Source: Sebaldella termitidis ATCC 33386 (GTDB lineage Bacteria > Fusobacteriota > Fusobacteriia > Fusobacteriales > Leptotrichiaceae). Taken from it: 64,000 nucleotides of DNA. The position numbers and the translations under genes were made by a program. The notes beneath the pieces are model-generated. The model was not told the origin of the DNA, did no database searches, and saw only the letters and a list, made by a program, of their open reading frames with translations. Positions 47,151-58,645 of this stretch are shown here, in pieces; positions within the stretch are counted from its first letter, which is position 1, and each line of letters opens with the position of its first letter. Where the stretch lies: positions 3,751,989 through 3,815,988 of the forward strand of contig NC_013517.1 of assembly GCF_000024405.1 (NCBI RefSeq), read 5' to 3'.

Positions 47151-47188
47151 TGTTTACAATTTTTAAATTTTATGCTAATATGTAAACA
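47151..47188. repeat. GTTTACA/TGTAAAC inverted pair, copy A
   Basis: TGTTTACA (47151-47158) and TGTAAACA (47181-47188) are inverted arms separated by 22 bases. The left arm can act as a -35 (TTTACA) with TAATAT 17 bases downstream, in front of the FtsL-like gene. The same arrangement recurs at 53354, 55539 and 55714. Confidence 0.6.
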
Positions 47189-47249: not shown

Positions 47250-47660
47250 ATGAATTTTAATGATGACACAGAAATCATTAATCCGGTACTGAAAATTATC
47301 AGAGAGTATGAAATGTATGAGAAAGCTGAGCTTGCACGTTATAATCTGGAAAAGAAAGAAAAGAAAAAACAAAAAAGAAAATTTAAAAACTCAAAACATT
47401 ATAAGCTTCTCAAAAATGCAGCGATATATATAGGAATATTCATGATGATCTCAGCATTTAAGATGAATGCAGTATATGCCGTTATGGATCTTAATATGCA
47501 ACTGAAAATACTGGATTCCGAAATTACAGAATCTGAGAAAATACTAAACAGCCTTAATATATCTGATGTTTATCAGATGGATCTGGAAAAGGTAAAAAAT
47601 ACTTCTAAAAAAATGGGATTTACAGAAGAAAAAAATGTTGCCTATGTTTATTTTAAATAA
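47250..47660 (+). CDS. Small single-pass membrane protein, FtsL/DivIC-like
   Basis: This 136-residue protein has a basic cytoplasmic N-terminus (EKKEKKKQKRKFKNSKHYK), one membrane helix (about 50-72), a short heptad-like stretch (DLNMQLKILDSEITESEKIL) and a tail 'VKNTSKKMGFTEEKNVAYVYFK'. This layout and the ending (helix, 'lgM/F', then a strand) resemble FtsL/DivIC, septal proteins that bridge the division machinery. No division gene is adjacent, so the assignment is by shape only. GGAGG precedes the ATG. Confidence 0.5.
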   Translation: MNFNDDTEIINPVLKIIREYEMYEKAELARYNLEKKEKKKQKRKFKNSKHYKLLKNAAIYIGIFMMISAFKMNAVYAVMDLNMQLKILDSEITESEKILNSLNISDVYQMDLEKVKNTSKKMGFTEEKNVAYVYFK

Positions 47661-48370: not shown

Positions 48371-50932
48371 CTATTTCATGTTATCATATCTCATTCTGCA
48401 TATTTCCCTGTACTCACAGAAACGGCAATTCTTCGGATCGTCTGTTCTCCTGTATTTATCCGATTTCTCAAAGTCATCTATTACTTCCTTCATATCGCTC
48501 AAGGTTAGGAATTCTTTTCCGTCGTCCTTATCCTCAAAGCTCATATCCAAAACATTATAAATTATCTTTTCTGCACTTTCATTTTCATAAATCAGATTTG
48601 AATAGAAGTAAAGCTGCCCCAGCTTTCCCTTTCCTGATTTAAAATCAATGATAAAATGTTCTTTTTCTGTTTCTATGAGCAGATCGAGCTTTCCTACGAT
48701 CTTTACATTGTCCGTTATCTGTCTTTCCTTCTTAAATTCAGGCTCAAAAACTATTATTCCGTCTTTTATTTTTTTCTCAATATTCTTAAAAAATACTGCA
48801 ACACTCTCAGTAACTATCGGAAATATAATTTCTTCATAATAATTACCATACTTTTTTGATATCTTTTCAGACTCGTTTTTTATTACATTCTTTACAGTCT
48901 TTTCTACTTCTGTGGTATTTATATCAAATTTCAGATTATTCATAATTTTTTCCTTCTGAATAACAGATATTTTTTCAAATACCTCATGTATAAGTATTCC
49001 CAGAGACTTTGAGGTTATTTTTTCCTGCGGCTCCACGAATTCTTTCAAACCAATCATTTTTTTCAGATAAAATCTGTAGTGACATTCTCTCAAATCCCTG
49101 AAATCATAAGCCCCTATTTTTAATTCACTCCCGGGTCCGGATTTATACAAAGTGTCGTCTCTGCTTCCGTTATATTCTATTTTCTTCTCATCAAATATCT
49201 CTTTAAGAATACTTTTTATATTTGATTCATTGAACATAATCTCATTAAATTTCAGATTATTTTCTATTCTTATTTCTTCTGCAAGTGAACTTACAAAAAT
49301 ATTCTGATCCTGTATTTCCAAAGAATATATATCTATAATTTTTGCACTGTTTAAAAATCTGAAAATCCTGAATTTTTCATTTTTTTTCAATTCTTCTATA
49401 CCGGGAAGCCCGTTTGCCTCACGTTCTCTTTCCCCGAGAAAAAAAAGATTCTCATTTATATCATAAAGATTTTTTTCATGAATATTGAAAAGGACTATTT
49501 TTTCCTTTTCCTCGTTTCTGTAGCTTTTAAAATCATCCAGTATTATTTCCTGCGAATCCTCTTTTATATTTAATGTTACCTCTTTAAAATCAAAGTATTT
49601 CAGTATTATTTTCAAAAAATTGGCACCGTTCGGCTTAAAATAGCTTTCCCAGTCTCTGTGTATTTTCAGCTTTTCTATTGCCTCTATTTCATTCAAAGCC
49701 TCGTAATACTTGTCAAGATCATCAGTAAATCTGTTATCCAGCAGTATTGATTTATTAAATTTTTCCATTACTCCGAGAACCTGAAGAAAATTTTCCGTAT
49801 TAAACATACTTTCCAAATCAGAAAATATTCCTGACATTTTTTCTCTGAAAATTTCATTTAAATTCAGATGGTTTAACAGATTTCTGGTTATATAAATATA
49901 GTCGTACTGTATTATTTTATCTATTGTTTCAGTAAAAAAAACATCTATTTTATAATAATCTGCAAATACCTTATTCGATATTGCATTTCTGAATTTTTTG
50001 AGATTTATGTTAAAATCTTCTGTATGTGTTTCCTTGCTTTCCAAAAGCTCCAGAATATATTTGAAAAAAGTATAAAATTTCGTATTTTTAAGGTAAATCT
50101 TACTTTTTACATTTGCTTTACTCTGTGATAACAAATTAAAATAAATCTCATTTTCCAGATCAGGAACAAGAAGATTCAGATTTTCCAGATTTTTATTTCT
50201 TTCAAGAATATCAAAGACATTTAATATTTCATTATCACTTCTGTATAAAGTCACTTCCTTATCTTTATCAAAAACCATTCTTGCTTTTTTTATTTTCAGC
50301 TCAGTGCTGTCATAATCCTCTTCATTTATCTGGTTTACTATTTCCACTGAAAACTCCCCGTCAAGCTTCCCGGCTATTTCTTTCTCAAAGGCAGTAAAAT
50401 TAAAATGATTAACAAAAATTATGTCGGTATATCCTTTTAAAAATAAAGTATTAAAATTTTCCGGACTTTCCAGAAAAAGTTTATTGGTATAGTCTAATTC
50501 CAAAAGTTTTTTTTCATATTTTACTTTTATTTCCTCAAGAATTTCATAGACTTTCCTTTTATTTTCACTTTTCAGAGTGAGCTTGTTTATCCCCCATTCT
50601 TTTAATTCTTTATAAAAATTTAAAAATGAAGAGGCTATATCAATAGAATCAAAATAATTTTCTATCTTAAAAAAGTCTCTTTCTCTCTCATCAAGTATTT
50701 CATAAAATAATATCTGCTCTTTCTCCTCCTTTAGTACTACCTTATCAGTATAAAACAGCTTCTCCCTGAGCTCGCCGATGTATATAAATAAGTTTTCGCT
50801 TACAACCTCTTCACTTTCATACAATTTCTCAAACTCTGATTTATCTGAAGGATTAGAAAAGACAAATACCGTATTCTTTCTATTCATATATTTTGAAAAA
50901 TCTCCAAAATATCCTGTATTGCTTATTATCAT
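48371..50932 (-). CDS. addB: AddB-like helicase/nuclease subunit
   Basis: This 853-residue protein has a C-terminal PD-(D/E)XK nuclease: 'GILIHEVFEKI', 'KIVGKLDLLIETEKEHFIIDFKSGKG' (Asp and D-x-K), 'QLYFYSNLIY'. The cysteine in LRECHYRFYLKKM and the triad CRFCEYREIC near the end match the four iron-sulfur cysteines (C...CxxCxxxxxC) that staple the AddB nuclease domain. The N-terminal two-thirds is a UvrD-like fold without a clear Walker A, as in inactive AddB-type subunits. It should pair with the AddA-like protein in double-strand break processing. At 853 residues it is shorter than Bacillus AddB. Confidence 0.75.
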   Translation of the reverse strand: MIISNTGYFGDFSKYMNRKNTVFVFSNPSDKSEFEKLYESEEVVSENLFIYIGELREKLFYTDKVVLKEEKEQILFYEILDERERDFFKIENYFDSIDIASSFLNFYKELKEWGINKLTLKSENKRKVYEILEEIKVKYEKKLLELDYTNKLFLESPENFNTLFLKGYTDIIFVNHFNFTAFEKEIAGKLDGEFSVEIVNQINEEDYDSTELKIKKARMVFDKDKEVTLYRSDNEILNVFDILERNKNLENLNLLVPDLENEIYFNLLSQSKANVKSKIYLKNTKFYTFFKYILELLESKETHTEDFNINLKKFRNAISNKVFADYYKIDVFFTETIDKIIQYDYIYITRNLLNHLNLNEIFREKMSGIFSDLESMFNTENFLQVLGVMEKFNKSILLDNRFTDDLDKYYEALNEIEAIEKLKIHRDWESYFKPNGANFLKIILKYFDFKEVTLNIKEDSQEIILDDFKSYRNEEKEKIVLFNIHEKNLYDINENLFFLGEREREANGLPGIEELKKNEKFRIFRFLNSAKIIDIYSLEIQDQNIFVSSLAEEIRIENNLKFNEIMFNESNIKSILKEIFDEKKIEYNGSRDDTLYKSGPGSELKIGAYDFRDLRECHYRFYLKKMIGLKEFVEPQEKITSKSLGILIHEVFEKISVIQKEKIMNNLKFDINTTEVEKTVKNVIKNESEKISKKYGNYYEEIIFPIVTESVAVFFKNIEKKIKDGIIVFEPEFKKERQITDNVKIVGKLDLLIETEKEHFIIDFKSGKGKLGQLYFYSNLIYENESAEKIIYNVLDMSFEDKDDGKEFLTLSDMKEVIDDFEKSDKYRRTDDPKNCRFCEYREICRMRYDNMK

Positions 50933-52925: not shown

Positions 52926-53024
52926 TTTTTTTATTAATAAAGAAAGCTGTAAAAACCTCCTCTTATATCTATACCCTAATTTCGACAATTCCCGCTAAAC
53001 AGCTATTCAACTAAAATACAAAAA

Positions 53025-53058
53025 AATAAAAGGCTGTTTTAGTAATACTAAAACAGCC
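53025..53058 (-). terminator. Strong hairpin terminator facing the minus strand
   Basis: AGGCTGTTTTAGTA and TACTAAAACAGCCT (53030-53058) form a 14-bp stem with a tiny loop. On the minus strand a T run follows (A run about 53017-53029). It lies about 800 bases beyond the nearest minus-strand gene (stop at 53849), so the transcript it ends is unidentified. Confidence 0.7.
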
Positions 53059-53353
53059 TATTTCCTTAAGGGGTATTAAAGGAAATTTAAAATGAAGAAA
53101 AAAGCTTTTATCTAAAAGACCTGTATATTATATGTACACTTTCTTTGAGGGCACTTTATTTAGACTTAGAAACATGTTAGTATGTATATTCTAAATATTA
53201 TTATTCTTTACTTTCACGTTTTCTTATATAATAACCTGTTTATTTTTGATTAAACGACATTGTATTTTCTTTTATTCTGCATGGCTGCAAATATGAAAAC
53301 TAATAAACAGACAGTCTATGCTCTTTCATTAATTTATAATAAAACATCATTTT

Positions 53354-53390
53354 AGTTTACAGTTTATATTTTATATTATATTTGTAAACT
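53354..53390. repeat. GTTTACA/TGTAAAC inverted pair, copy B
   Basis: AGTTTACA (53354-53361) and TGTAAACT (53383-53390) are perfect inverted arms with a 21-base gap; the match extends to TTTAGTTTACA/TGTAAACTAAA. There is no gene nearby. Confidence 0.6.
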
Positions 53391-53610
53391 AAATAGGCGA
53401 TTTATCTTTTATTTTAAAGGGATAAATAAAAAAATCATGTATTTTATATAATATATACTATTGAAAAAAGAATACATTACTAATACCTGATTTTATTAAT
53501 TTCTACAGAATAAGGAATAATCATATGGAGCATTGAATAACATAGAGTACTGTCTTAGCATAACATATGTATACATTTTCTGCATTGTAGATCCCGATTG
53601 TAATATTATA

Positions 53611-53796
53611 TTATTTTCTTTCTATACTTCTGCATATTTTTTGACAAATTGCAAAGCGCTTTCTTTTGCTCGGCAGCTGTTTATAATAATGAACTCCCAG
53701 TTTCCCGGCAGATGGTGACTTGGTACCTAATCCTTGCATCAAATACTCACTTAAGCACTCCCGGCAAAACTTTTTTCTTTCGATTCCAGCACTGTT
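53611..53796 (-). pseudogene. Possible decayed gene fragment with Cys-x2-Cys
   Basis: A minus-strand frame open from 53796 to the stop at 53611 reads a basic, cysteine-bearing peptide (KKFCRECLSEYL, then LGVHYYKQLPSKRKRFAIC) without a start codon or Shine-Dalgarno. Local composition is less AT-rich than the surrounding spacer. It could be the remnant of a gene that followed the DUF1848 gene. I recognise no family, and it may be chance. Confidence 0.3.
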
Positions 53797-53848
53797 CTAT
53801 TTCTATTTATAATCTCGTAAAATGTTATAATCTTACCACTTTCTGCTT

Positions 53849-54784
53849 TTATAATTGCAATTTCTGCTGCCTTTGACCGATAAAGCTTTTTTGATTACCC
53901 TGCTGTATTGTGTCAGTTTCATTCAAATGCCCTAATAATAACGGAGAATTTGAATCATGATATTTATAATTCTCAAATGCTTTATTCGGATTTTTATTGG
54001 CATAACAGTATTTACAGCCATTCAGACAGGTATCATAAGCACCGATATCCCGGCTTTCAATACAATGACAGCCCTGTCTCGTACCTTTATGCTTCAGATC
54101 TTTAAACGAAATTCCATTAGCATTCCCCATGATTTCCAGTGTCATACATCCGGACGGATAAATTCCGTAATGTAAATAATCTCCGTTTGTACCACAGGTC
54201 TGAATATACAAGTTATTGCTTTTGGCAGTTTCGCCAAAGCTCTTCGCAAGCATGTCTTTGTCTTTATCTGTCATGGGAATCAGCTCCGGCATATTTATTT
54301 CCAGCTTCTTATACATCTCTACAAAACTAAAAATACATCGATCAACATAAGGAGCAATTTCCTTAGCCATGTATGAAAAAGTTTTCATATGTGTCTGAAC
54401 TGTATACTTGTCAGTCAGGAGTACAGGATCATAACGCCATGCTATACGCTGTTTGCCTGTAACGACAGATAACCTTTTCAATATCTCTATACTTTTTTCT
54501 ATAGACGGTACTCCCGGTTCTATATCCTGTCCATATGCAGTAATTGTGTAGTGAAAGTATGTATTGAACCGATCTGTGATCTTAGACAAGTCTGTTAAAA
54601 TAGGTTCATAATTTTTGGAACAGAACTGAATACAGTCTACTTTTTCCGGTGTCAGTTCATATCTTGATACCTTATTAGGAAACAGAGGATTGCGTGATAA
54701 AACATATCCTTCTTCAAAACGTTTCAGCAGCCATTTGGCATAGTACTGGACAGTATCCGTTCTCCCTCCTGTATTAATAATCAT
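53849..54784 (-). CDS. DUF1848 family protein
   Basis: This 311-residue protein opens 'MIINTGGRTDTVQYYAKWLLKRFEEGYVLSRNPLFPNKVSRYELTPEKVD'-type residues typical of DUF1848 and ends in a cysteine cluster, 'GCHCIESRDIGAYDTCLNGCKYCYANKNP' (C-x3-C-x2-C), suggestive of an iron-sulfur cluster. Family members look like radical-SAM-type barrels, but the role is unknown. It overlaps the MarR gene by four bases, so the two are translated together and the regulator probably controls it. Confidence 0.85.
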   Translation of the reverse strand: MIINTGGRTDTVQYYAKWLLKRFEEGYVLSRNPLFPNKVSRYELTPEKVDCIQFCSKNYEPILTDLSKITDRFNTYFHYTITAYGQDIEPGVPSIEKSIEILKRLSVVTGKQRIAWRYDPVLLTDKYTVQTHMKTFSYMAKEIAPYVDRCIFSFVEMYKKLEINMPELIPMTDKDKDMLAKSFGETAKSNNLYIQTCGTNGDYLHYGIYPSGCMTLEIMGNANGISFKDLKHKGTRQGCHCIESRDIGAYDTCLNGCKYCYANKNPNKAFENYKYHDSNSPLLLGHLNETDTIQQGNQKSFIGQRQQKLQL

Positions 54785-55236
54785 TTTTCATCCTCATTTC
54801 TATTCATTAAATCAGCAAGATTCCTTGTAAATTTTCTTGAAAGGCTGATAAGCTGTTCCTGCTCCTCTGGTGTAAACATCGACATGGCAGTATCTTCCGC
54901 CCGTGTAATATGAACAACTGGCTGTTTAGCATATGCTTTACCGCTTTCCGTCATCTTTACAAATTTATTTTTCTTATTTTGGGGATCCTCCTCTAACGTG
55001 ATATACCCGTCTTTAAGAAGATTTTTAATAATCAAATTTACTGTCTGTTTTGAATTAAATGTCTTTTGGCAGATTTCTTTCTGTGTCATGCTGCTTGGTG
55101 CATAGTAAAGCACATTTAAGACAAGCAGTGTTTTCATGAGTAATCCGTGCCTTTTAGCATATTCATCATAAAGAGCATACTGCTCATCACGAAATTTGCA
55201 ATATAAATATGCATTTCTTTTATCATTTTTTTTCAT
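54781..55236 (-). CDS. MarR-family transcriptional regulator
   Basis: I place the start at the ATG at 55236 (AGGATGAGG upstream), giving MKKNDKRNAYLYCKFRDEQY and 151 residues, the usual MarR length; an ATG at 55302 would lie within the promoter. The winged helix is 'SSMTQKEICQKTFNSKQTVNLIIKNLLKDGYITLEEDPQNKKNKFVKMTESGKAYA'. It is the first gene of a two-gene operon with DUF1848 and is likely autoregulated. The ligand is unknown. Confidence 0.9.
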   Translation of the reverse strand: MKKNDKRNAYLYCKFRDEQYALYDEYAKRHGLLMKTLLVLNVLYYAPSSMTQKEICQKTFNSKQTVNLIIKNLLKDGYITLEEDPQNKKNKFVKMTESGKAYAKQPVVHITRAEDTAMSMFTPEEQEQLISLSRKFTRNLADLMNRNEDEK

Positions 55237-55273
55237 ATTCCTCATCCTTTTAGTAAATTTATTGACTATTTTA

Positions 55274-55302
55274 AGTATAGTCCATATTTTGCATATTGTC
55301 AA
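55274..55302 (-). promoter_or_regulatory. Promoter of the MarR-DUF1848 operon
   Basis: TTGACA (55302-55297) and TATACT (55279-55274) are separated by exactly 17 bases on the minus strand, a near-consensus sigma-70 promoter 38 bases before the MarR start. Confidence 0.85.
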
Positions 55303-55538
55303 TTAATTGTTTCAAAAATAAACTGCTGCTAAAGCTGTTTTCATTCTGTTATATGAAAAATCCGTCCCGGTAAAAAAATAAATTCCAGACTGTAATAATA
55401 AAAAAATTTTCAAAAATATACTGCTTTAAATCCTCTGCATATAAAATTTTTCCCCAAAGTAACTTTGTTTAAAGTGTTCGTCTGCTTTACAAAAAAATCA
55501 TCAAAGTCATTGTTTTTAAAGGGATTGTATGAGTTTTT

Positions 55539-55604
55539 GGTTTACAATTTTTCTTTTTTCATATTTTATTTACAAATATTATATTTTTTTGAATTTTGTA
55601 AACC
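55539..55604. repeat. GTTTACA/TGTAAAC cluster, copy C
   Basis: GGTTTACA (55539-55546), ATTTACA (55568-55574) and TGTAAACC (55597-55604) lie with gaps of 21 and 22 bases. The outer arms TTGGTTTACA and TGTAAACCAA are exact inverted repeats. Confidence 0.6.
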
Positions 55605-55713
55605 AATTATACAACCAAAACCTTATTTTATATTGAATACAAATTATTTTATCTGTATATTTAATGATATTATGTCTGAAACCCTTAATTTTCAATTATT
55701 ACATTATGATTTT

Positions 55714-55775
55714 GGTTTACAATTTTTATATCCCATTCAGTTTACATATTATATTTTTTAAAATTTTTGTAAACT
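55714..55775. repeat. GTTTACA/TGTAAAC cluster, copy D
   Basis: GGTTTACA (55714-55721), AGTTTACA (55739-55746) and TGTAAACT (55768-55775). The last two are perfect inverted arms with a 21-base gap. Confidence 0.6.
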
Positions 55776-55965
55776 AAAAATATTAAATTAACCTTATTTA
55801 ACAAGGATATAAACAAATTTATTAACATTTTGAAATATATCTCATATTTTATCTAAGAGTTCTGCTCAGATCTTTTCGCAATGAAATTATAATGAAGCTC
55901 AGCTTCTCAGAATGACTCTATTTTTTTCTTTATTGGATATAAACAGATCACAAAACAGCTCTAAC

Positions 55966-55994
55966 AAAAAAACGGCTCTGACAAGCCGTTTTTT
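55966..55994 (-). terminator. Terminator of nrdDG
   Basis: AAAACGGCT and AGCCGTTTT arms with a six-base loop, directly after the nrdG stop at 55995; a long T run follows on the minus strand. Confidence 0.9.
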
Positions 55995-56486
55995 CTAGAA
56001 TTCAATATTATTATCTTTTATATACTCTTTTACATTTATAATTCTTTGATTTTTACTGCCTCTGAAACTCAACTCTTCAGAATGAAGTTCCTGTATAAAA
56101 CGTCCGTCCACAAGAGTATTTATATACTTTAGACATTCCTTTTTTACCTTGTCCAAAAGCAGCTGTTCTATTGTATAACCTGTATAACACCATATATCTA
56201 TATCCCCGGTTTCTTTTCTCAATCTCACAAGAAAATCCAGAAATTCCTCAGAGTCATAAAAAGGATCACCGCCGCTGATTGTTATACCGCTCAACATTTT
56301 ATTGCCGTTTATTTCATCTGTTATCTTCTTGAAATACTTACTGTCCATAACCTCGCCGTTATCAGGATTCCATGATTCCTCATTATGGCATCCCGGACAG
56401 GCATGGGAACATCCCGAAAAATATATTGAATACCGGAAACCCGGACCATCAGATATAGTTTCCCTGAATATTTTTAATATTCTCAT
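55995..56486 (-). CDS. nrdG: Anaerobic ribonucleotide reductase activase
   Basis: This 163-residue radical-SAM protein has iron-sulfur cysteines C26, C30 and C33 in GCSHACPGCHN, the CxxxCxxC motif. 'GITISGGDPFYDSEEFLDFL' is the SAM-binding GGD region. It makes the glycyl radical on NrdD using SAM and reductant. Its start overlaps the nrdD stop by four bases, so the two are translationally coupled. Confidence 0.96.
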   Translation of the reverse strand: MRILKIFRETISDGPGFRYSIYFSGCSHACPGCHNEESWNPDNGEVMDSKYFKKITDEINGNKMLSGITISGGDPFYDSEEFLDFLVRLRKETGDIDIWCYTGYTIEQLLLDKVKKECLKYINTLVDGRFIQELHSEELSFRGSKNQRIINVKEYIKDNNIEF

Positions 56487-58645
56487 TTAGAAACTCCGTG
56501 CTTTGTTCTGTCCTTTTCTTCAGCTTTCTTAAATGAATTCCAACTGTCAAGATCTCCTGTAAGATATCCTGTTATTCTTCTTGTTCTTGAAATTTCCTCG
56601 CTTCCGCATATAGGACATTCTATTTCAATAAGACTTTCAAATCCGCATGACTTACATCTGTCTATAGGATGGTTAATAGAACCATAGCCTATATTATTAT
56701 CCTTCATGGCTTTTATTATCTGAAGAATAACCACAGGATTCTTTTTCGCTTCCCCGTCAAGCTCTACATATGTGATATGTCCGCCCTTTGTAAGCTCGTG
56801 AAATCTTCCTTCTTTTTCTATTTTTTCAAGAGCCGAAATTTCAGACTTTACGTCAACATGGAAAGAGTTTACATAGTATTCTCTGTCATTTACATCTGTG
56901 ATTTCACCAAATTTTTTCTTATCAATAGTTGTAAATCTTCCTGACAGACTTTCTGCCGGCGTAGCCAGTACAGAATAATTCAGATTATCTCTTTTCTTAT
57001 ATTTATCTACTACTTCATTCATTACTTCAAGTGCTTTTACTAAAGTATCATATGATTTTTGACTGTCTCCGTGCCCTTTGCCTGTTAAAGCTACCATCGC
57101 ATTATGACCGCCGATAAATCCTACTCCTAATGTTCCTGAATCAAGCATAGATCCTACTTCATCATTTCCCATCAGAGTATTTCCGCCTTTCCAGATATTG
57201 TTTCTCATCATGAAAGGAAACTGTTTTGCAAGTGCTGTTCTCTGGAATTCATATCTTTCTTTTAACTGTTCTATTACGAATTCAGTATATTTTTTTAGTT
57301 TTTCAAAAAATCTTTCGATAGCCATATCTTCCAGAGACTGTGCATCTATATTGCTGTTTTCTGCCAAAATTTCATTCTTAGCTTCTACTGCAAGTCTTGG
57401 AAAGTTAATTGTAGTAAATGACAGATTTCCTCTTCCTATAGAAGTCTTATCTCCCGCTACATTTTCAAAAACTCTTGTTCTGCATCCCATTGTGGCTACT
57501 TCATATTTATACTTGTACGGATCATCCATTCTCCACATTTCATGCTTATTATAAGTAGTATCAAGAAATACGAAATTAGGGAATAATCTTTTTGCTGTAG
57601 TTAAAGTTGTTTTTATTAATAAGTCAAAATTCGGTGTTTTATACTTAAGCTCGCCTTTTATTGCCTTATCCCAGTTTTTAAGGGCCAGTTCATAGTCTTC
57701 TTCAGAATAATTCAGCCCTTCCTTTACCTTAAAAATCTGTATTGGGAAAATAGGTGTTTCACCATCTCCCAGTCCTGCTATTGTTGCATTCAGCAGTTCG
57801 TTTATAAGCATTCTTCCTTCAGGTGATGTATCTGTTCCATAGTTTATAGAAGAAAATACTACCTGATTTCCTCCACGTGAATGCATCGTGTTTAAATTAT
57901 GTATGAATCCTTCCATTGCCTGGTATGTCTCATATTTAGTATCATAATATGCTACATGTATTGCTTTTTCTACTTCATTCATTGTTAAATTCAATTTAGA
58001 TGACAAAATCAGCTTCTTCTCATCAGTAACTTCAATAGAGTCAATTATTTCCGTAAGAAGATCTTTTAATTCCTGATTTGCTTCTTCTACGTAATCAGAC
58101 TCAAGATATGCTAAAACTCTGTATTTCAGATGTCTTCTGAAAGATTTTAACACTCCTTTTGCCATAAAAAAATCAAATGCCGGTATCGACTGACCACCAT
58201 GCTGCTCATTTTGATTTGTCTGAAATATGATTGTAGCCAAAGTTGCATATGTCGATATACTTTTCGGCTGTCTTATGAATCCGTGCTTTGATTTAAATCC
58301 GTTTTCAAAAAGGTCTTCCAGATCATACTGAACACAAGTTGTTGTTTTTGTAGGATAATAATCCAGATCATGTATGTGGATATATCCTTCCTTATGAGCA
58401 TCAGCATATTTTGGTGTCACCAGATACTTCAGGGCATAATCCTTCGATGTTTCAGAAGCAAATTTCATCATTTGTCCTGCAGGAGTATCAGATGACATGT
58501 TAGCATTTTCATTGTTGGTATTATTTTTTTCTACATTTATAATACCGTCAAAAATTTCTTTAAAGTTATTTTTTATTGTTGAAAATCCCTCGTATTCTGT
58601 TACTCTTTCCTCATCATTTTTATTTATATACACCATTCTATCCAT
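56483..58645 (-). CDS. nrdD: Anaerobic ribonucleoside-triphosphate reductase (class III)
   Basis: This 720-residue protein has 'HIHDLDYYPTKTTTCVQYDLEDLFENGF' and 'PKSISTYATLATIIFQTNQNEQHGGQSIPAFDFFMAKGV', the NrdD signature. It also has a zinc-type C-x2-C/C-x2-C pair (CKSCGFESLIEIECPIC) and the glycyl-radical loop RRITGYLTG near the C-terminus. It makes deoxynucleotides without oxygen. The protein begins almost directly at the catalytic domain: the N-terminal ATP-cone of about 90 residues found in many NrdD proteins seems absent, so allosteric activity control by dATP may be missing. The start may be ATG 58645 or ATG 58636. Two NrdR boxes lie upstream. Confidence 0.96.
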   Translation of the reverse strand: MDRMVYINKNDEERVTEYEGFSTIKNNFKEIFDGIINVEKNNTNNENANMSSDTPAGQMMKFASETSKDYALKYLVTPKYADAHKEGYIHIHDLDYYPTKTTTCVQYDLEDLFENGFKSKHGFIRQPKSISTYATLATIIFQTNQNEQHGGQSIPAFDFFMAKGVLKSFRRHLKYRVLAYLESDYVEEANQELKDLLTEIIDSIEVTDEKKLILSSKLNLTMNEVEKAIHVAYYDTKYETYQAMEGFIHNLNTMHSRGGNQVVFSSINYGTDTSPEGRMLINELLNATIAGLGDGETPIFPIQIFKVKEGLNYSEEDYELALKNWDKAIKGELKYKTPNFDLLIKTTLTTAKRLFPNFVFLDTTYNKHEMWRMDDPYKYKYEVATMGCRTRVFENVAGDKTSIGRGNLSFTTINFPRLAVEAKNEILAENSNIDAQSLEDMAIERFFEKLKKYTEFVIEQLKERYEFQRTALAKQFPFMMRNNIWKGGNTLMGNDEVGSMLDSGTLGVGFIGGHNAMVALTGKGHGDSQKSYDTLVKALEVMNEVVDKYKKRDNLNYSVLATPAESLSGRFTTIDKKKFGEITDVNDREYYVNSFHVDVKSEISALEKIEKEGRFHELTKGGHITYVELDGEAKKNPVVILQIIKAMKDNNIGYGSINHPIDRCKSCGFESLIEIECPICGSEEISRTRRITGYLTGDLDSWNSFKKAEEKDRTKHGVSK

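Follow-up and report, generated by a model that had tools for sequence, protein, structure and literature searches.

Recurrent GTTTACA/TGTAAAC arm pairs in Sebaldella are predicted operators of an autoregulated XRE-M78 regulator associated with FtsL-like proteins

Introduction

Two spacers at 53.3-55.8 kb of a 64-kb stretch of the chromosome of the termite-gut bacterium Sebaldella termitidis (C1:3751989-3815988, the whole of which is called the window here) carry a repeated inverted element, in which the arms GTTTACA and TGTAAAC face each other across a nearly constant gap. What is this element for, and which protein would recognise it? The initial annotation offered three answers: repressed promoters of small RNAs, binding sites of a dimeric protein, or remnants of a mobile repeat. 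We analysed the element in S. termitidis (G000), in three other Sebaldella genomes (G001, G002 and G003) and in further members of the family. Our reading is that the elements are probably operators of an autoregulated XRE-M78 protein; the promoter copies would control FtsL-like proteins and the intergenic cluster would form a reservoir or anchoring array.

Results

Arm pairs recur with a gap of 21-22 bp

Exact GTTTACA/TGTAAAC pairs occur three times in the window, at 47152-47187 (gap of 22 bp, N22), 53355-53389 (N21) and 55740-55774 (N21), while 100 shuffles of the window produced none. Single arms are also in excess (18 versus 7.4 expected, with a shuffle maximum of 14). Based on local dinucleotide shuffles, the two spacers 53221-53480 and 55303-55995 should hold 0.19 exact arms; they hold 7, and a pair appeared in none of 20,000 such shuffles. 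As the initial annotation had proposed, we also asked whether the gap is enriched over shuffled sequence. Across the four Sebaldella genomes, gaps between 12 and 40 yield 15 exact pairs, and in 13 of them the gap is 21 or 22, so the attempt at refutation failed and the recurrent pairs stand as non-random, with a spacing that is enriched genome-wide.

A search for N21 pairs with two mismatches allowed returned background level only, so sites are either near-perfect or absent. We discounted two kinds of pair whose gap falls outside 21-22 bp: one at G000:C1:363941, with a gap of 25 that its G002 copy shares, is taken to be a chance occurrence, and N13 pairs in three further genomes of the family are regarded as unrelated. 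A further arm, at 54871, falls within a MarR gene and looks like chance.

Some details of the original description needed correction. The arms exist, with most positions given one base too low. The element placed at 55539/55568/55597 does have three arms, the middle one (55568) reading ATTTACA rather than GTTTACA; its 21 and 22 bp gaps involve this imperfect arm, and the exact outer pair at 55540/55597 is spaced 50 bp. The extra arm beside 55740 is present at 55715, at a distance of 18 bp and not 17.

Promoter sites and a promoter-less cluster

Two classes of site can be told apart: N22 copies, which in three species lie over the promoters of two genes, and an intergenic cluster without promoters. 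Arms and outer flanks are common to both classes. In the window, the N22 site at 47152-47187 (plus strand) overlaps the promoter TTTACA-N17-TAATAT and lies 62 bp upstream of the gene for a small bitopic FtsL-like protein, FtsL-A (47250-47660, plus strand). It is conserved in G001 and G003, with one mismatch each, and stands 62-70 bp upstream of the start in all three species.

The second N22 site, at G000:C1:3129544, precedes the ATG of an xre regulator gene by 16 bp. Its orthologs in G001 and G003 keep the same 16 bp, and the promoter in the three species reads TTTACA-N17-TATAAT or TTTACA-N17-TATACT. The N22 promoter type can thus be written TTTACA-N17-TATAAT: all six xre and FtsL-A sites overlap TATAAT, TAATAT or TATACT variants, matching the -10 in 4-6 of 6 positions at a spacer of 17, within the 16-18 bp of a sigma-70-type promoter-embedded operator. 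The arms of these sites reach past the promoter elements.

The cluster comprises three sites, to which no strand is assigned. Site 1 (53355-53389) is GTTTACA-N21-TGTAAAC without a promoter and corresponds to L037:8599-8633 in G001. Site 2 (55540-55603) has arms GTTTACA at 55540, ATTTACA at 55568 and TGTAAAC at 55597; in its G001 ortholog (L037:9026-9089) arms and spacing are identical. Site 3 (55715-55774; L037:9204-9263 in G001) has GTTTACA at 55715 and 55740 and TGTAAAC at 55768, the last two forming the N21 pair. We looked for a consistent -10 on both strands of the cluster sites and found none. The suggestion that TTTACA is the -35 box of a repressed promoter accordingly holds at 47152, where a TAATAT -10 follows at N17, but not for the cluster sites. 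Small-RNA promoters are not borne out in either class: 47152 precedes a protein gene, the cluster has no consistent -10, and there is no Rfam match.

Conservation is confined to the arms and to Sebaldella

Exact pairs with gaps of 20-23 number 13 in G000, G001 and G003 and zero in the 30 other Leptotrichiaceae genomes searched. The S. termitidis and G001 clusters are orthologous, third arms included, and 56/56 arm bases are identical compared to 70/107 between the arms (Fisher p = 1.7e-8). The G003 cluster has a different location, on contigs 101 and 130, which both end inside it; it contains four to five exact N21 pairs, with a unit of about 235 bp in tandem duplication.

This pattern bears on the proposed origin from a mobile repeat, which would make the elements decaying, non-functional copies. 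Local duplication has clearly taken place: the elements at 55.53 and 55.70 kb are 74.5% alike over 102 bp, and G003 has its tandem 235-bp unit. Against this, arm bases are conserved across species without exception and the DNA between the arms drifts, sites of the same kind stand at two conserved promoters, and each Sebaldella genome searched has one cluster and two promoter copies, without the dispersed copies of a mobile element or MITE. With orthologous positions conserved, the tandem growth in G003 notwithstanding, a mobile origin is not supported; the remnant reading is largely refuted and we hold it to be very unlikely.

G003 does have a high-copy, REP-like repeat of its own, TGTCATCCTGAGAAGCG...GAGGATCT, at L035 11277-14046 and on many other contigs. 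A two-copy query gave 68 matches in G003, mostly to this repeat, which is unmatched in S. termitidis.

The dimeric-protein proposal fared best: the arms, third ones included, keep their sequence and spacing across species as the inner DNA drifts, and the xre site keeps its place 16 bp upstream of the start codon in three species. We conclude that the repeated pairs are real, selected sites and, judged from their sequence, putative binding sites.

A sequence model built from 17 sites and run on four genomes recovered, at E < 1e-3, only the known sites and one new degenerate site in G002, so the regulon is tiny. This degenerate N21 pair of G002 lies in a partly deleted copy of the site cluster (L127 2040-2200), beside a MarR remnant and an ortholog of the window gene at 48371-50932. 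No xre was detected in the G002 assembly; at 86% completeness, that assembly has none of the xre neighbourhood, and the missing gene is not read as a loss.

An XRE-M78 protein is the candidate regulator

The xre gene encodes a protein of 348 aa (G000:C1:3128484-3129527, outside the window on the same chromosome). It is found in 3 of 33 family genomes, exactly those with exact sites (G000, G001 and G003), a co-occurrence drawn from one genus and therefore reflecting few independent events. The N-terminus is an XRE (Cro/CI-type) helix-turn-helix (HTH_3, E = 7.3e-11, above cut-off). A Peptidase_M78 domain scores 24.4 bits (cut-off 22) at residues 183-272 in S. termitidis; the G003 ortholog (59% identity) shows no match to it. 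The HExxH zinc motif, HELGH in distant relatives, is lost to SELAR or NELAR in Sebaldella, so the protein does not qualify as an active ImmA/IrrE metalloprotease. It scores under the cut-off of the spr1629 family (NF052239; 67.6 and 81.9 bits versus 335) and likewise under that of the RamB NCBIfam model. In the AlphaFold model the HTH alone is confident (helices within residues 3-63; mean pLDDT 48.9).

Relatives on plasmids and phages are all below 60% identity, the best among the matches listed reaching 22-28%, so nothing points to a recently mobile module. One distant relative, at L102 4013-5209, has HELGH intact and is followed by two short ORFs; by eye these are PIN-like and Fic/Doc-like, which suggests a toxin-antitoxin setting.

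We infer that the XRE-M78 protein binds the sites, that it represses, and that the cluster serves it; its identity as the operator-binding protein is predicted from association, conservation and its autoregulatory position. Each arm (about WWWRGTTTACAAAWTT) would be one recognition unit and a full operator would consist of two facing arms with 21-22 bp between them; where a copy has a third arm, binding may be cooperative or tetrameric. The regulator would then repress its own operon (xre and the next gene, FtsL-B) as well as FtsL-A. The geometry of the N22 sites fits such a role: a protein bound to the two arms would sit on the -35 and the last part of the -10 and should thereby keep RNA polymerase out.

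A different protein could instead bind the sites and have xre as one of its targets. The facing half-sites are centred 28-29 bp apart, a wide span for one XRE dimer that counts against binding by XRE-M78. Two known regulators provide a parallel. The RamB box, AA/GAACTTTGCAAA, contains TTTGCAAA (PMC4448153), which differs by one base from the core of the Sebaldella arms, TTTGTAAA. PrpR, a regulator homologous to RamB, is an IrrE-like protein that forms a tetramer and does not keep the HEXXH residues of IrrE (PMC6765138). The likeness to the RamB box, a short and AT-rich motif, and the PrpR parallel lend weak support, by analogy, to binding by the XRE-M78 protein.

The predicted targets are FtsL paralogs

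FtsL-B (L038:4004-4450) and FtsL-A are paralogs with 42% identity (E = 9e-32), and FtsL-A is 38% identical to the canonical ftsL product. Both match (blastp E = 3.5e-26 and 1.7e-26) this canonical ftsL of the mraZ-rsmH-ftsL cluster, where mraZ and rsmH were recognised by eye. They have a single TM segment, a C-terminal SKK[LM]GF motif and a core that aligns with canonical FtsL. Family models miss their cut-offs: FtsL-B scores 15.4 versus 24.6 bits for FtsL_2 and 14.6 versus 42.45 for ftsL_broad, and no FtsL match is listed for FtsL-A among Pfam and NCBIfam models. We therefore make the assignment from three things: paralogy, the core common to the proteins, and the gene order around canonical ftsL. 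The N-terminal tails of FtsL-B are extended and conserved. In G003, FtsL-A (L104 3626-3999) is apparently frameshifted between N-terminal tail and core, by decay or assembly error.

The regulator and the sites at the FtsL-like genes point to a small circuit for the control of cell division that is specific to the genus.

The cluster neighbours are not conserved

If the cluster sites acted as switches for nearby transcription, candidate targets would be a MarR-DUF1848 operon, a conserved small-RNA candidate or an unannotated promoter. The MarR gene (54781-55302) and the gene for the DUF1848 protein (53849-54784) lie between cluster sites 1 and 2 (53849-55302, minus strand), so that the sites at 55540-55774 are upstream of MarR. 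Site 1 (53355) is about 140 bp upstream, on the minus strand, of the RNA-like block, and a minus-strand TTTACA-N16-TAATAT is present at 55774. However, the orthologous G001 spacer keeps the sites without MarR-DUF1848, which thus cannot be their conserved target; in G003 the RNA-like block stands beside nrdG without sites, the cluster being elsewhere; and the -10 boxes are not conserved. With neighbours that differ among MarR-DUF1848 (G000), a PTS/glycosidase operon (G001) and others (G003), local gene regulation is disfavoured and appears rather unlikely.

The spacer with MarR-DUF1848 is otherwise orthologous to that of G001, which indicates an insertion in S. termitidis or a deletion in G001. 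Next to the cluster lies an nrdG-nrdD type anaerobic ribonucleotide reductase operon (55995-58645, minus strand, named from sequence). Because the cluster is 3' of it, we regard this operon as flanking context. A link between cluster and nrdDG was rejected, as G003 has nrdG and its nrdG spacer carries no site, and so was a link with the RNA block, the two being separated in G003.

The block itself (53023-53216, minus strand) is likely a structured small RNA. It shares 89% identity with G001, including an unbroken match of more than 70 bases, and folds with z = -4.0. An invariant loop, UUUAAUACCCCUU, sits in a hairpin whose stem varies compensatorily in G003, and a terminator hairpin follows. 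It has no Rfam match.

Possible roles of the cluster

The cluster at 53.3-55.8 kb may be better read as a set of the same operators without promoters, acting as a titrating reservoir or a nucleation or anchoring array rather than as a switch of neighbouring genes. For its location, we note that the S. termitidis chromosome has 4,418,842 bp (genome 4,486,650 bp in three contigs), with dnaA at position 361 and a flip in GC skew between 2.2 and 2.42 Mb. These positions put the cluster on the left arm, some 613 kb away from the origin and not at the terminus.

We prefer titration, a variant within our overall explanation and one that we consider a fair possibility though short of probable. The cluster operators would compete with the xre and FtsL promoters, replication of the locus would free or use up regulator, and expression of the FtsL paralogs would be tied to gene dose or the cell cycle, as with datA. 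It agrees with arms that are the same as in the promoter operators, with cluster sites that outnumber promoter sites and have no consistent promoter, with neighbours that differ among G000, G001 and G003, and with growth of the G003 array by tandem duplication. The left-arm position about 613 kb from the origin is compatible as well, although that distance is not special.

Anchoring comes second and seems improbable. Here the regulator would spread or oligomerise at a centromere-like site and contact the N-terminal cytoplasmic tails of FtsL-A and FtsL-B, positioning DNA relative to the divisome. There is a single cluster per genome, extra arms suggest multimerisation, a DNA-binding protein and a bitopic FtsL paralog are paired in one operon, and the FtsL-B tails are long and conserved; nevertheless, the cluster is at neither the origin nor the terminus, and we know of no precedent for such a role among XRE-M78 proteins. 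More broadly, the array, the autoregulated XRE-M78 protein and the two FtsL paralogs might together couple chromosome state, through array copy number or position, to divisome assembly, an idea that we regard as doubtful.

Discussion

None of the parts (XRE-M78 repressors, FtsL, operator arrays) is new on its own; their genus-restricted combination appears to be. A literature search combining FtsL with XRE regulators and paralogs found no paper on such control of FtsL. If our reading is true, a repressor of the ligand-sensing type stands over a duplicated core division protein in a small, dedicated Sebaldella circuit, and the genus maintains a separate, conserved array of the regulator's own operators. 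With an operator array that has no promoters, regulator titration or the coupling of chromosome and division would become testable in a simple system. The result also gives a concrete functional lead for proteins that match general XRE models only, or no family model.

Among operators, those of BirA and the cre sites of CcpA resemble the arms, but their orientation or spacing is different. CopY operators, considered as candidates, were dismissed for the same reason.

The closest relatives in architecture are RamB, PrpR and the spr1629 antitoxin, which likewise fuse an XRE HTH to an M78-like domain and have paired sites. The RamB core TTTGCAAA is close to the Sebaldella TTTGTAAA, and PrpR shares the degenerate protease motif. 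In contrast to these systems, the partners in Sebaldella are neither metabolic genes nor toxins but FtsL paralogs, the facing arms are 21-22 bp apart, and there is a promoter-less cluster.

The SOS and stress division inhibitors YneA, SosA and SidA are also small single-pass membrane proteins under a repressor, and a link to division control is possible in Sebaldella too; the Sebaldella proteins differ in being true FtsL paralogs that keep the FtsL core motif. The E. coli datA locus, with its DnaA boxes, is likewise a cluster of regulator sites away from promoters. Protein and sites differ in Sebaldella, where titration is a proposal. Finally, Noc/SlmA and ParB-parS resemble the present case as DNA-bound proteins linked to the division machinery, here by gene pairing. 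The Sebaldella regulator, however, has a single XRE HTH and no ParB or TetR fold, and its sites form one small cluster instead of distributed or contiguous palindromes.
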